DNA of 64,000 nucleotides from Actinopolyspora saharensis (GTDB lineage Bacteria > Actinomycetota > Actinomycetes > Mycobacteriales > Pseudonocardiaceae): assembly GCF_900100925.1 (NCBI RefSeq), contig NZ_FNKO01000002.1, positions 1,922,001 to 1,986,000 of the forward strand. The letters run 5' to 3'. The position numbers were made by a program, and so were the translations under genes. The notes beneath the pieces were generated by a model, which made no database searches, was not told the DNA's origin, and was given only the letters and a program-made list of their open reading frames with translations. Shown piece after piece: positions 14,654 through 57,402 of the stretch. Each line of letters starts with the position of its first letter. The first letter of the stretch is position 1.

Positions 14654-16156
14654 GTGACCGGAAGACAGGACGAGCCGGGGCCCCGCTGGGACTCGGAACA
14701 GGGCTCCTCCGACGCGACGCCGAACCCGAACGCCGCTGCCGCCGAGAGCGGTTCCCGGCCGGAGCACTCGGTGCCCGACTACGGTGCCGGTTCCGGGGCG
14801 AGCGCTCCCCAGGGGGGCGATCCCGCCGCCGGTGCGAATCCGGACCGGTCCGCCCCGAATCCGTCCGGGGACGCGGGGGCGCATCAGCAGCAGCCGGGGG
14901 CGCCCGGCGGAGCTCCTCCTCCGCAGCAGGTTCCGGGACAGCCGTACTCCGGTCCCAATCCCGTGGTGCCGCCCTACGTGAACCCCGCGGCTTCGGGGCC
15001 TCAGCAGGCTCCTGGAGCGGAGCAGTACCGCATGCAGTCCGGGCCTTATCAGACCCCGGGCTCTTCCGGCGCGCACCAGGTGTGGGGCGGACAGTCCGGG
15101 CCCTACCCGGCCCCTCCCGGACAGCAGCCCCATCCTCCGCAGGGGTATCCGCAGGGGAACCCGCAGCCGCAGCAGGGGCAGTCCTTCCCGGCGCAGCAGC
15201 AGGTTCCCGGCCAGCACGACCCGGCACTGGGGCAGGACCTCTCCTCGGCGCAGCTGGTGCGGCAGGTCAAACGGCCCCCGCAGTCCGGCTGGCGACGTGC
15301 CGTCTACCTGGCCAGCGGGAAGACGATCAATCCGGGGGAGAGCCCGGCCGACGTCCGCAGGCGCGAACTGATCAACCGCATCAACCAACCGCTGCAGGGC
15401 TGCTACAAGATCGCGATGCTCAGCCTGAAGGGCGGGGTGGGCAAGACCACCACCACGGCCACGCTCGGCTCCACGTTCTCCTCGCTGCGCGGTGACCGCG
15501 TGATCGCGGTGGACGCGAACCCGGACCGGGGGACGCTGGGGCAGAAGATCCCGATGGAGACCACGGCGACGGTGCGGCACCTGCTGCGCGACGCCCAGCG
15601 CATCCGCAAGTACAGCGACGTCCGCTCGTATACCTCGCAGGGGCCGAGCAGGCTCGAGGTGCTGGCCAGCGAGCAGGACCCGGCCGTTTCGGAGGCCTTC
15701 AGCGAGTCCGACTACCACACCACGGTGTCGCTGCTGGAGCACTTCTACAACATGGTGCTCACCGACTGCGGAACAGGTCTGATGCACTCGGCCATGAAGG
15801 GCGTGCTCGACGTGGCCGACTCCCTGGTGATCGTCTCACCGGGTTCGGTCGACGGCGCGCGCAGCGCTTCGGCCACACTGGACTGGCTGGACGCGCACGG
15901 TTACGGCGACCTGGTCGCGCGCTCCGTGGCGGTGATCAACTCGGTGCGGCCGGGGTCGGGCAAGGTCGATGTGGACAAACTGGCCGCGCACTTCGGGGCC
16001 AGGTGCCGCTCGGTCTCCCGGATTCCGTTCGACCCCCATCTCGAGGAGGGCGCCGAGGTGGACCTGGACCAGCTCGCCGCGCCCACCAGGCTGGCCCTGC
16101 TCGAGCTCGCCGCGAGTGTTGCCGATGACTTCCCCCACGCCGCAGGCAGGCAGTAG
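14654..16156 (+). CDS. EspI-like protein: disordered Pro/Gln-rich region plus MinD/ParA-type ATPase
   Basis: Of 500 residues, the first ~215 are low-complexity Gly/Pro/Gln with QSGPYQTPG and QGYPQGNPQPQQ blocks. A basic linker (RPPQSGWRRAVYLASG) leads to an ATPase domain beginning GCYKIAMLSLKGGVGKTTTTATLG, whose deviant Walker A starts at K259. VIAVDANPDRGTL and VLTDCGTGLMHSA follow. This arrangement matches EspI-type ATPases linked to type VII (ESX) secretion. GTG 14654 has GGAGG nine bases upstream. No ESX membrane core is in the window, but ESX-like small proteins lie 2.7 kb downstream. The exact role is inferred only from the family. Confidence 0.85.
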   Translation: MTGRQDEPGPRWDSEQGSSDATPNPNAAAAESGSRPEHSVPDYGAGSGASAPQGGDPAAGANPDRSAPNPSGDAGAHQQQPGAPGGAPPPQQVPGQPYSGPNPVVPPYVNPAASGPQQAPGAEQYRMQSGPYQTPGSSGAHQVWGGQSGPYPAPPGQQPHPPQGYPQGNPQPQQGQSFPAQQQVPGQHDPALGQDLSSAQLVRQVKRPPQSGWRRAVYLASGKTINPGESPADVRRRELINRINQPLQGCYKIAMLSLKGGVGKTTTTATLGSTFSSLRGDRVIAVDANPDRGTLGQKIPMETTATVRHLLRDAQRIRKYSDVRSYTSQGPSRLEVLASEQDPAVSEAFSESDYHTTVSLLEHFYNMVLTDCGTGLMHSAMKGVLDVADSLVIVSPGSVDGARSASATLDWLDAHGYGDLVARSVAVINSVRPGSGKVDVDKLAAHFGARCRSVSRIPFDPHLEEGAEVDLDQLAAPTRLALLELAASVADDFPHAAGRQ

Positions 16157-16193
16157 GAACTCTGGGTGGGTCCTGTTGCTTGGTGGGTCGCTT

Positions 16194-16367
16194 GGCGGAA
16201 CCTCTCGCGGGCTCTCGCTCCGGGAGGCCCGACATCGGGTAGCGACCTACACAACGTCGGGCCTTCCTTGCGAGAGCACCACGAGAGAACCCGCGGCGGT
16301 GCTGACTGCTCGGGCTCAAAGCGCCTGCGTTGAGCGGAGGCTTTCGCCGGGAGTTCCTGTCTGGGAG
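16194..16367 (+). repeat. Intergenic hairpin repeat, copy A
   Basis: The first ~105 bases are nearly identical to copy B (57224-57402). Nested arms are GCTCTCGC (16211) with GCGAGAGC (16270), GGCCCGAC (16226) with GTCGGGCC (16256), and an apical GTAG-CGAC-CTAC (16239-16250). A ~60-nt tail around 16310-16367 (AGCGCCTGCGTTGAGCGGAG and beyond) is shared with copies B and C. It lies in a convergent gap just before a strong hairpin terminator. Its role is unknown: it could be a REP/MITE-like element, a structured RNA or part of a terminator. Confidence 0.88.
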
Positions 16368-16450
16368 CCCTTGTCCGGTGGGGCTGGCTGCGTAGACGGT
16401 GTTTCGGCGCTGCGCGCCGGGAAGAGATCGGGTCAAACCGGCGGTGCCGG

Positions 16451-16500
16451 TTGATCGGGTGGTGATGAGCGGCCGACGCCGCTCACCACCACCCGATCAA
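16451..16500. terminator. Bidirectional hairpin terminator
   Basis: A 22-bp stem with one mismatch and a six-base loop: the left arm 16451-16472 starts TTGATCGGGTGGTG and the right arm 16479-16500 ends CCACCCGATCAA. It lies between two convergent genes, ending four bases from the stop of the minus-strand gene, so it can serve both. Confidence 0.85.
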
Positions 16501-16504
16501 CTGT

Positions 16505-35034: not shown

Positions 35035-35745
35035 GTGTCTCGTGCCGACCTGGACAGGGATCCGCGTGCCGTGGCCGCGATGTTCGACGACGTCGCGCGC
35101 CGCTACGACCTCGCCAACACGGTGCTCTCGCTCGGTCTGGATCGGCACTGGAGGGAAGTGACCCGGCGCGCGCTGTCGCCCGCGAGCGGGGAGCGCATCC
35201 TGGACCTGGCGGCGGGAACCGGCGTGTCCACTGCCGAGTTCGCCCGTTCGGGGGCCAAGTGCGTGGCCGCCGACTTCTCCTTCGGCATGCTCTCGGCGGG
35301 GTACAGCAGGGGGCTGCCCATGGTCGCGGCCGACGCGCTGAACCTGCCCTTCGCCGACGCCACCTTCGACGGGGTGGCGATGCTGTTCGGCCTGCGAAAT
35401 CTGGCGGACACCGCGGCGGGCCTGCGGGAGATGGCCCGGGTGGTCCGTCCGGGGGGCAGGCTGGTGATCTGCGAGTTCTCCACCCCGACCCGGCAGGCGT
35501 TGCGTTCCGTTTACCGCAACCTCGCCCTGCGCGCGGTCCCTCCGGTGGCCCGCGCCGTCTCGAGCAACCCGGACGCCTACGTCTACCTGGCCGAGTCGAT
35601 CCTGGCCTGGCCGGACCAGCCGAGCCTGGCCGCCGAGATCGGTCGCGCCGGGTGGTCGGAAGTGGCCTGGCGTGACCTGACCGGGGGGATCGTCGCCGTG
35701 CACCGGGCCGTCAAACCTTATGACTCACAACGGGACTCCGCGTAG
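35035..35745 (+). CDS. menG: Demethylmenaquinone methyltransferase
   Basis: SAM-dependent C-methylation of demethylmenaquinone, the last step to menaquinone. 236 residues. [20 protein letters not shown] is the UbiE/MenG start signature, [15 protein letters not shown] (residues 57-70) the SAM motif, and FGLRNLAD plus [21 protein letters not shown] follow. GTG 35035 is preceded by TAGGCT about 7 bases away, suggesting a leaderless mRNA. Its substrate comes from MenA (21.4 kb). A hairpin repeat copy begins 20 bases after the stop. Confidence 0.95.
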
Positions 35746-35764
35746 CCGCCTCGGGTAGCCGTCA

Positions 35765-35935
35765 CGTGAGTCGGCGCCTTGCTGCGTTGGAGGGCACCTC
35801 GAGTAGCGGCCTACGCCACGTGCCCTCCCGTCTTGCAATGCATCCGACTCACGCACCGGAGCTCCTCGTCCTGCCTGGGCTGAAGCGCTCGCGTCGAACG
35901 GAGTGCCTTCCACTGGAAGTTCCTGACGGGAGTTC
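35765..35935 (+). repeat. Intergenic hairpin repeat, copy C (divergent stems)
   Basis: Same plan as copies A and B with other stem sequences: CGTGAGTCGG (35765) with CCGACTCACG (35844), GGAGGGCAC (35789) with GTGCCCTCC (35820), and the conserved apical GTAG-CGGC-CTAC (35803-35814). The tail from ~35876 (GCTGAAGCGCTCGCGTCGAA, then GGAAGTTCCTGACGGGAGTTC to 35935) is alignable with the tails of A and B. The change of both arms together indicates that the pairing is kept. The rest of 35936-36277 has no gene; it holds the Rex-type site. Confidence 0.85.
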
Positions 35936-55707: not shown

Positions 55708-57195
55708 GTGACGTGGCTGTTTACCCAGGTCTGGTTGTGGAGCTTCGCAGGCTTCCTGTGCGGTGTGGGGCTGACCTGGCTGCTGTTCGTCCGCCCCGCC
55801 CATCGCCAGCTCAGGCAGCTGCGCGAGCGGCAACGAGCGGCCGAGTGGGACGCGACGGGTCCGGCCGAGCGCGCGGAGGACGACGCCTTCCCGCGGGAGG
55901 AGTCCGACACGGCCGTGTGGGACCTGCTGGACGTGGACTCCGCGGACGATGCGGCCTTCGGGGGGCCTACCGGGGACCGGCCGTTCCGCGTGTCCGGCAC
56001 CGCGGAGCGGAGCGTGGCGGGGAGCTCGGTGGAGGAGAGCTCCTCCGAGCAGTCGAGCGCGCAGCCCCCGGACGATGGGCGCGGACGCTGGATGGAGGTC
56101 GCCGCCGGTGACTTCGGTGGCCAGGCTTTCGCCGCCGAGCACACCGGTGCGCAACCGGGGCGGGGTGAGCAGGAGCTCGCGTCCACGGCCACGGAGTGGC
56201 AGCCCGTCCAGGAAACCCCGGGGACGGCGGATGGACCCCCCGTGGAGGACTCCGAGCTGCGGTTGGAACGGGACCGCGAGACCACCCCGAACCTTCCTCG
56301 GGCCTCCGTGAGCAGGGAGGAACGTGCCGATCCGCCCACGGCGCCCGCCGAGTTGGCCCCGGGGGCCGAGCTCGCGGGCGCGGGTCGGGAGAACACGTGG
56401 TTCGCCGCCTCGGAATTCGACATGTACGACACCGACAGCGTCGAGCAGTCGCAGCCCGAATCCCCCGCGGTCGACGCGGCCCCGCGATGGAACGAATCGG
56501 CCCCGGCGACGGGGGGTGCGCACGACGAATCGACGGAGACGCTCGCGGCACCCGAGCGGGAGGAGTCCGAGGGCGAGCTGACCGGCAGGCTCCGCTCGCT
56601 GTTCGAACCGCTCGCCGCCCCGGGGATCGAACCGGACCGGGAAGGGGTCGAGCTCCCGGTGCACACCCCCGCTGCGGAGGAGGAGACGTCCTCGGGGGAG
56701 CCCGAGCGCTCCGCTGAACAGCCCCCGGAGCACGGCAGTGCGGAGCCGGCGGAAGGGAACGCGGCCGACTCGGTGGGCGAATCCGGCACCGCGGAGGAAA
56801 CCGGTGCGGGCGAGGATCTGCCCAGGCGGGTTCCGGGAAGCACCGACAGGCCGGGGACCCCGCCCAACGCCCGCCCGGTGATGACGGGCAGAGTGCTCGA
56901 CATGCCCGAGGACGCCGCCGTCGCCCCGACGCTGGGACGCCCTCCGAACTCCGAGCAGACGGGCGAGGGGAACTCGACCGCCGGTGACCGCCCCCAGGAG
57001 TGGTACCCGGACGAGCAACTTCCCGACCAGGAACGACCGGACGCGAGCTACACGGTCAAGGGCCAGTTCGGCTCCCGGCAGTACCACACCCCCGACTCGC
57101 CGTACTTCGACCACGTGGTCGCCGAGGTCTGGTTCCGCAGTGCTGCCGATGCGGAGCAGGCGGGTTTTGAGCCCTGGGACTCCCATTCGGAGTGA
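55708..57195 (+). CDS. Membrane-anchored protein with disordered middle and C-terminal sunset-type domain (ArfC-like)
   Basis: 495 residues. An N-terminal helix (FTQVWLWSFAGFLCGVGLTWLLFV), then ~390 residues of acidic, Ser/Glu/Pro-rich low-complexity sequence. A small conserved end follows: YTVKGQFGSRQYHTPDSPYFDHVVAEVWFRSAADAEQAGFEPW. That end is the short 'sunset' module seen in actinobacterial ArfC-type channel accessory proteins (recognition from memory). GTG 55708 starts MTWLFTQVW, normal for these proteins. It stands alone between the polyprenyl synthase and copy B of the hairpin repeat. The function is not established. Confidence 0.75.
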   Translation: MTWLFTQVWLWSFAGFLCGVGLTWLLFVRPAHRQLRQLRERQRAAEWDATGPAERAEDDAFPREESDTAVWDLLDVDSADDAAFGGPTGDRPFRVSGTAERSVAGSSVEESSSEQSSAQPPDDGRGRWMEVAAGDFGGQAFAAEHTGAQPGRGEQELASTATEWQPVQETPGTADGPPVEDSELRLERDRETTPNLPRASVSREERADPPTAPAELAPGAELAGAGRENTWFAASEFDMYDTDSVEQSQPESPAVDAAPRWNESAPATGGAHDESTETLAAPEREESEGELTGRLRSLFEPLAAPGIEPDREGVELPVHTPAAEEETSSGEPERSAEQPPEHGSAEPAEGNAADSVGESGTAEETGAGEDLPRRVPGSTDRPGTPPNARPVMTGRVLDMPEDAAVAPTLGRPPNSEQTGEGNSTAGDRPQEWYPDEQLPDQERPDASYTVKGQFGSRQYHTPDSPYFDHVVAEVWFRSAADAEQAGFEPWDSHSE

Positions 57196-57223
57196 GCGGC
57201 TCAGCTTGCGTAGGTGTTTCCGT

Positions 57224-57402
57224 GGCGGAACCTCTCGCGGGCTCTCGCTCCGGGGAGGCCCGACATCGGGTAGCGGCCTACACAACGTCGGGCCTTCCTC
57301 GCGAGAGCACCACGAGAGAACCCGCGGCGGTGCCGGTTGCTCAGGCTCGTAAGCGCCTGCGTTGGATGGAGCCCTTCTTCCGGAAGTTCCTGGCGGGAGT
57401 TC
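57224..57402 (+). repeat. Intergenic hairpin repeat, copy B
   Basis: Nearly the same as copy A over the first ~105 bases: GCTCTCGC (57241) with GCGAGAGC (57301), GGCCCGAC with GTCGGGCC, apical GTAG-CGGC-CTAC. The tail (AAGCGCCTGCGTTGGATGGA, then GGAAGTTCCTGGCGGGAGTTC to 57402) is closest to copy C. It fills the convergent gap between the sunset-domain gene and lrp, as copy A fills another convergent gap. Confidence 0.88.

Follow-up and report, generated by a model that had tools for sequence, protein, structure and literature searches.

A stem-covarying hairpin element behind stop codons of Actinopolyspora saharensis, with transposon-like unit ends in Saccharopolyspora

The window analysed here, 64,000 nucleotides of the Actinopolyspora saharensis genome (contig NZ_FNKO01000002.1, positions 1,922,001 to 1,986,000), contains three copies of an intergenic hairpin element, all read on the forward strand: copy A (16194-16367), copy B (35765-35935) and copy C (57224-57402). 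Copy A follows a gene for a ParA/MinD-like ATPase (~15032-16156; AAA_31/CbiA domains, with MinD-like matches below cut-off) whose TAG stop codon occupies 16154-16156. A leader containing GTTGCTTGGTGGGTCGCTTGG (16157-16194), of the kind found at the other copies, connects the stop codon to a type 1 hairpin (16195-16294; 138.3 bits with covariance model R1) built from a GCGG/CCGC foot, an AAC/AAC internal loop, outer, middle and inner stems and a GTAG-CGAC-CTAC apex, and a tail beginning GGCGGTGCTGACTGCTCGGGCTCAAAGCGCCTGCGTTG (16295-16367) completes the copy. Copy C is arranged in the same way behind the TGA stop codon (57193-57195) of an open reading frame ending at 57195, with a similar leader (57196-57224), a type 1 hairpin nearly identical to that of copy A (57225-57329; 127.5 bits) and a tail running from GGCGGTGCCGGTTGCTCAGGCTCGTAAGCGCCTGCGTTGG to GGAAGTTCCTGGCGGGAGTT (57330-57402). 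The tails were delimited from the sequence and the three-copy alignment. Genes were called with a home-made GC-frame script that is adequate for GC-rich genes, is uncurated and misses some genes at locus edges.

Copy B stands behind menG (called 35080-35745), whose TAG stop codon was placed at 35743-35745 by the gene call and by comparison with congeners. It carries a type 2 hairpin (35759-35859; 122.1 bits) with a CCG/CGG foot, an outer stem CGTGAGTCGG/CCGACTCACG, an inner stem GAGGGCAC/GTGCCCTC and a GTAG-CGGC-CTAC apex, followed by a tail that extends from AGCTCCTCGTCCTGCCTGGGCTGAAGCGCTCGCGTC to GGAAGTTCCTGACGGGAGTT (35860-35935). By eye, the end of menG (window 35715-35745) appears one base short relative to congeners, both here and in the congener genome G005, which would shift the stop codon ~20 nt downstream, as far as the element. 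The gap is co-directional, between menG and a geranylgeranyl-reductase-family gene, whereas the other two copies occupy convergent gaps, as the initial annotation had noted (at 16194 the opposing small gene was seen by eye). The protein encoded downstream of copy B is closest, among the named loci listed, to those of Actinopolyspora xinjiangensis (87%) and A. righensis (85%), and the menG flank in the records of these two species is the same in the congeners G008 and G004.

The three copies can be aligned over ~200 columns, and alignment and folds bear out the common plan that had been proposed for them. The near-twins are the copies at 16194 and 57224, which share the arms CTCTCG../GCTCTCGC/GCCCGAC, and the divergent copy is that at 35765; the initial annotation, which described A and B as near-identical and C as divergent, had these labels swapped. 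Its tail motif GGAAGTTCCTG-CGGGAGTT is indeed present at 35765 and 57224. Folded singly, each copy adopts a single extended hairpin of three stem stages that is more stable than 200 of 200 dinucleotide shuffles (z = -4.3 for A, -2.6 for B and -4.0 for C). An apical GTAG-N4-CTAC appears in the folds of copies A and C, and the single-sequence fold of copy B draws the apex differently. A search of the window against Rfam 15 returned a tRNA as the sole match, and eight related loci gave, at E ≤1, a tRNA and one match far below its gathering score; the element is thus a structured-RNA candidate unmatched in Rfam 15 across the window and these eight loci.

Further copies are abundant in the genome (G000, 4.68 Mb in two contigs, C1 and C2), which clearly contradicts the possibility, raised in the initial annotation, that there might be none. 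In blastn searches at E ≤10, copy C as query produced 70 matches and copy B produced 50, a part of which are short or weak. The covariance model R1, built from 60 copies and used only to find copies, identified at least 147 places at E ≤0.01, 142 of them at E ≤1.4e-10; since scoring was confined to the best 150 of 6355 candidates, 147 is a floor. The RNAalifold structure of R1 is poor (21 pairs), since its alignment had to accommodate both type 1 and type 2 copies. A check in 40 stretches of 20 kb from both contigs, some of those on contig 1 placed on known matches, produced 30 non-overlapping matches above 50 bits, of which 29 were already listed and one was additional (L149 5435, 53.7 bits). 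Ordinary intrinsic terminators that resemble one another by chance would share the position behind stop codons, but the copies have leader, internal loops and tail in common at no fewer than 147 places at E <0.01, and by eye none of the window copies has a T-run directly 3′ of the hairpin. The probability of that explanation is negligible, and chance-alike terminators are refuted as the source of the common sequence.

The copies occupy a strikingly regular position. All 147 lie outside called genes, behind a co-oriented gene in 119 cases and behind an opposed one in 25; three could be assigned to neither. Convergent gaps house 68 of the co-oriented copies and co-directional gaps 51; in sample stretches, convergent gaps make up 83 of 509 gaps. 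Among co-oriented copies without another copy just upstream, 89/106 start 35-50 nt 3′ of the stop codon (distances on the minus strand may be off by one), a near-fixed place behind ~90 genes in the genome. The close host stop codons are TGA in 70/94 cases, and TAG and TAA together show a modest enrichment (24/94 versus 74/531; Fisher p 0.008). Eleven pairs of neighbouring copies within 300 bp are oppositely oriented, with a spacing of 211-217 bp in nine and of 167 bp (involving a weak copy) and 238 bp in the others.

On the scale of the chromosome the distribution is uneven: contig 1 beyond 0.4 Mb (1.65 Mb, 35% of the genome) holds only 4/147 copies, and the density of convergent gaps is alike in this copy-poor part (33 in 15 stretches versus 38 in 20). 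If the end of contig 2 joins the start of contig 1, the copies would mark ~1.5 Mb on each side of dnaA. On contig 2, 92/129 copies lie on the leading strand as reckoned from dnaA, compared with 170/272 genes.

Inspection by eye gave the same order of parts across genera. A stop codon is followed by a ~37-nt leader with TTGCGTRGNGGT, a GCGG/CCGC foot and a symmetric AAC/AAC internal loop, above which come the outer and middle stems, an asymmetric TGC loop, a short G-G stretch and the inner stem; a TCGA or TCAT loop opposite CCACG comes next, and an apical stem carrying a small loop closes the structure. The fold is thus a three-stage hairpin of ~100 nt with fixed internal-loop motifs. Its apex is GTAG/CTAC in A. 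saharensis and GTAT/ATAC, GAAT/ATTC or GACC/GGTC in other genera, and type 2, represented by copy B, follows the type 1 plan with CA/CA in place of AAC/AAC. The letters of the internal loops, which lie outside the arms, are conserved across genera. The stems behave as blocks that occur in many combinations, with 27 different 5′ combinations among 96 rows, and at least two copies (C2:730836 and C2:1163439) appear by eye to be chimeras, made of halves of different types with incomplete pairing.

Covariation was assessed in alignment A3, which comprises 40 distinct rows, 28 from Actinopolyspora and 12 from five other genera. Starting from 41 non-redundant picks, 14 were left out: the reverse-strand-like L264, four copies of type 2, and others that were truncated, chimeric or degenerate. 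Another 13 rows came in, namely copies A and C of the window together with 11 congener copies from loci A and B, so A3 does not contain window copy B. Standard pairs fill 94.2% of 1300 cells, a percentage raised by the picking of rows and the dropping of degenerate and type 2 copies, and 24 of 33 pairs show changes on both sides. The covariation of 0.396 exceeded that of 500/500 shuffles (mean 0.109) and that of six slid versions of the structure (0.055 to 0.081), although the slid control somewhat favours the structure used, that of covariance model R2, which was built from a cleaner alignment and takes its structure from majority single-row folds of A3's own rows. Moreover, at the orthologous site behind the ParA/MinD-like gene in nine species, pair 4 of the outer stem is variously T-A, G-T, G-C, T-G and, in one species, G-G, and pair 5 is C-G or G-C. 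Taken together, covariation against two controls and stepwise paired changes at one orthologous site support the conclusion, which the initial annotation had suggested, that the hairpin fold is under selection for structure.

Whether the fold acts as RNA or as DNA was approached through non-standard pairs. Across the 33 pairs of A3, G-U cells number 37 and A-C cells 43, and a post hoc count without four edge pairs gives 34 versus 11; in alignment A4 the figures are 58 versus 78 (83 rows) and 86 versus 107 (130 rows), which leans against RNA. With G-U no more frequent than A-C in the full sets, these counts do not single out RNA as the molecule under selection. Linkage between arms was measured in a set of 96 rows, in which at least two copies are present twice through overlapping loci. 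For the inner stem the uncertainty coefficient between the two arms is 0.79, compared with 0.44 and 0.38 with same-side neighbours. For the outer stem the link between arms (0.55) is weaker than that to the neighbouring stem (0.72), which favours neither compensation nor the copying of arms.

These data bear on the explanation that the element is selfish and has no host role, insertions elsewhere having been purged and the arms having been matched by template switching in replication. The arms do swap as blocks, most clearly in the inner stem, and some copies of the same genome, such as copy C and that at C2:176940 (97%), are by eye more similar than orthologous copies in close relatives; pneumococcal repeats are likewise enriched in convergent gaps, which is taken as tolerance (PMC3049150). 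However, an orientation bias of 119 to 25 is unexpected of a harmless insert, the single-pair intermediates at an orthologous site, including T-G, resemble stepwise compensation rather than arm copying, and the conserved internal-loop letters lie beyond the arms. We therefore consider a purely selfish origin of the pattern rather unlikely.

Within the genus, R1 found at least 53 matches in each of eight of the nine other genomes and three in G006 (four with R2). An element stands behind the ParA/MinD-like gene in 9/10 congeners and behind menG in 7/10, and at both loci its type differs between species, with stems exchanged and compensated; at the menG site G001 has an apparent remnant, and the element is absent from G003 and G006. 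Seven sites that bear the element elsewhere were inspected in G006, the ParA/MinD-like locus among them, and none contained it. At five of the sites (L222, where it is weak, L223, L225, L236 and L238) a plain GC-rich hairpin lies 3′ of the stop codon instead, such as CCGCGGGCGCGGGCTCGTCCCCGCGCCCGCGG in L225, and there is none at L234. The comparison with G006 is loose for site C2:2512063, which lies behind a tRNA copy.

Beyond the genus, a scan of the Pseudonocardiaceae with R2, in which the best 13 candidates per genome were scored at E ≤1e-5 with stricter filters, detected the element in 78/297 genomes and 15/46 genera, Saccharopolyspora among them, and no match in the other 219 genomes. In the low-copy genus g56 a copy behind gatB is kept in 4/6 genomes examined. 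Among 67 loci from other genera, counted without weak or unoriented cases (L248, L255, L262, L268, L314-L316, L319-L321, L331 and L340), a co-oriented gene lies upstream in 52, in 39 of these at 20-60 nt from its stop codon, and 28/67 fall outside the tight sense position. In 80 named loci around the FAD gene, R2 found nothing at E <0.01 beyond two Actinopolyspora loci; R1 gave one weak match there (L093, E 0.00013) that R2 did not repeat. The plasmid and phage collections yielded no match to the Saccharopolyspora unit described below.

The limits of the element are clearest in the Saccharopolyspora genome G307, where five distinct copies are discrete units of 201-203 bp, counting flanking TAs. 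The copies are 0.96-1.00 identical within the unit, and identity falls to 0.13-0.47 over the 60 nt flanking each end. The ends, RGGCCTGTTTCG and GGACGTGTTTTA, form short imperfect terminal inverted repeats, and TA is present at both ends in 5/5 copies, a comparison of filled sites only. One copy (L377) adjoins an apparent TAG stop codon, and by eye the TA together with the first G of the element restores TAG. When the 5′ end of the unit was used as a search pattern, G307 also proved to contain an insertion sequence 936-938 bp long, present in five copies, with ends GGGYCTGTTTCA and TA on both sides. The 5′ end of the unit agrees with the end of this insertion sequence at 11/12 letters in the best case, and its 3′ repeat has diverged from it. 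Two open pieces of the insertion sequence carry DUF4096 and DDE_Tnp_1 domains and match NCBIfam models of IS5-family transposases; we take the insertion sequence to be IS427-like. The likeness of the hairpin unit to the IS5 family therefore lies in its 5′ terminal repeat and TA flanks, and the unit differs from such elements in having no transposase gene and a diverged 3′ repeat.

Other genomes show related or looser arrangements. Among seven stretches fetched from genome G142 there are four copies of a similar insertion sequence and one 126-bp derivative (C1:1956685-1956810, L380) that has both IS5-family ends (GGGCCTGTTTCA) without the hairpin core; it is a second MITE of the same insertion sequence. 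In G248 the ends differ (GAGCCTGTCTTTGAAC), and by eye the three bases on either side agree (TCA) in only 1/4 copies. The Actinopolyspora copies yielded no target duplication and no clear 3′ terminal repeat; their leader after the stop codon resembles the 5′ end of the G307 unit only loosely, and their 3′ end is unrecognisable. When 1.31 Mb of the A. saharensis genome (with overlaps) was searched by tblastn for the transposase pieces of G307, one IS5-like element was detected, with ends that do not match. This element, at G000:C1:506155-507021 (L166 6155-7021), is an IS5-family-like insertion sequence with repeats GACCGTGTCCTACGTGGT and TA flanks, and its ends are unlike those of the hairpin element.

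The initial annotation had also proposed a REP- or MITE-like mobile unit; the MITE part is supported by the discrete ends in Saccharopolyspora, and the RAYT-type REP part is not supported. REP sequences are extragenic palindromes that form composites and reach high copy numbers, and they carry GTAG at the foot of a hairpin of 20-40 nt. The present element is likewise palindromic, extragenic and numerous, forms opposite-oriented composites and has a GTAG/CTAC motif, so that a REP/BIME moved by a RAYT (Y1) transposase could be envisaged. Here, however, GTAG sits at the apex rather than the foot, and the much longer unit (~200 bp) is bounded by TA in G307. A search for PF01797 gave no match in the A. 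saharensis genome and was positive in 5/14 control genomes, which rejects a RAYT origin for this genome unless it has a Y1 transposase that the Pfam model misses. A REP/BIME identity is accordingly very improbable.

We conclude that the element is probably a MITE family whose structured core is under selection and whose copies have been kept in Actinopolyspora as putative 3′-UTR hairpins. The ends that define a MITE are observed in Saccharopolyspora, and the assignment would extend to Actinopolyspora through homology of the core. A model can be drawn in which the unit is mobilised in trans by an IS5-family transposase and inserts at sites that contain TA, among which stop codons and CTAG would be natural targets in GC-rich genomes. 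Insertion at the TA of a stop codon would place the element directly behind a gene and leave the gene undamaged, and copies in sense orientation would be retained because the hairpin serves the end of the transcript. Most likely the fold would act as part of the mRNA 3′ end, either stopping transcription or protecting the 3′ end, and would take the place of plain GC hairpins such as those at several of these sites in the element-poor G006; homogenisation may also occur among copies. Since a palindromic TA target should impose no orientation, the bias of 119 to 25 suggests that the fold is used after insertion. None of the five G307 copies is in a tight co-oriented position (0/5), which fits later sorting, albeit with few copies, and the bias for the stop-codon position may arise by later selection rather than by targeting of insertion. 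As a counterpoint to a TA target, the TGA majority of host stop codons (70/94) is not directly explained by TA.

The main alternative to a mobile origin is a native, non-mobile RNA motif of the 3′-UTR, such as a terminator or a site for an RNA-binding protein, that was spread among paralogous gene ends by gene conversion, the Saccharopolyspora ends then reflecting later capture by a transposon. Such a motif would account for a position common to most congeners at two loci (9/10 and 7/10), for the strict distance and orientation, for internal loops conserved across genera and for the gatB copy shared by 4/6 genomes of g56. It fits poorly with the patchy occurrence in 15/46 genera, with near absence from G006 and with the sharp 201-203-bp units of G307 with TA at both ends, and we judge it unlikely.

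The MITE reading may be taken one step further, although we do so tentatively and regard this extension as possible rather than expected. The element could be a mobile 3′ end, that is, a functional RNA fold that predates the genera in which it occurs, brought to stop codons by a TA-targeting element as a ready-made transcript end, so that native terminators were exchanged at scores of Actinopolyspora genes; a host factor would read the fold, and the copies would depend on that factor. If so, what is read would be the AAC/AAC and TGC internal loops and the GTAG/CTAC or GTAT/ATAC apex, and lineages that lose the host factor would lose their copies together.

Several repeat families described elsewhere are comparable. 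RUP is a 107-bp element with 108 copies, a TA target and terminal repeats like those of IS630-Spn1 from the same cell, and BOX consists of modules A, B and C, is folded, is over-represented between convergent genes and supplies a stop codon in 36 cases (PMC2229807, PMC3049150). NEMIS/Correia and ERIC are small TA-bounded repeats with terminal repeats whose transcripts form long stem-loops, and NEMIS has been proposed to act on the neighbouring mRNA via RNase III (PMC2229807). RUP, BOX, Correia and ERIC are all small, mostly TA-bounded and strongly folded, and judged by such properties the present element works in a similar way. It differs from RUP and BOX in the match of its 5′ end to an IS5-family element (seen in G307), in its GC-rich genome, in a core fold found in 15 genera, in covarying stems and in the near-fixed distance behind stop codons of most A. 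saharensis copies. Set against Correia/NEMIS and ERIC by properties, the combination of conserved internal loops, covarying stems and stop-codon position is distinctive.

The literature searched, from which most subscription journals lie outside coverage, contained no description of this hairpin family. Occurrence in 15 genera with compensated stems, fixed internal loops and a strict place after the stop codon is unusual. Bacterial MITEs are usually regarded as species-level debris. The ~90 copies in a near-fixed place after stop codons would offer natural replicates of a transposable element joining gene expression, and in the element-rich genomes (at least 147 copies here and 139 in G022) varied stems around the same loops make a role of the fold statistically testable.

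Additional small palindromes were observed downstream of the main hairpin. In the window, a near-perfect hairpin of ~24 bp (GGTTGATCGGGTGGTG...CACCACCCGATCAAC) lies 3′ of copy A at ~16449-16501; it is kept in the two closest congeners (L273 and L274), and its start resembles the tail of the element. A different small palindrome, GGCGATTTCGCGAGAAATCGAC, and its variants occur downstream of the element behind loci A and B in other Actinopolyspora species (L277, L279, L280, L286, L288). Outside the genus, the tails of L251, L258, L261, L266, L267, L310, L318 and others contain a further small hairpin such as AAGCGGCTCCGCCGCTT, which comes after the main hairpin and before the unit's 3′ end; it is terminator-like, without a T-run.
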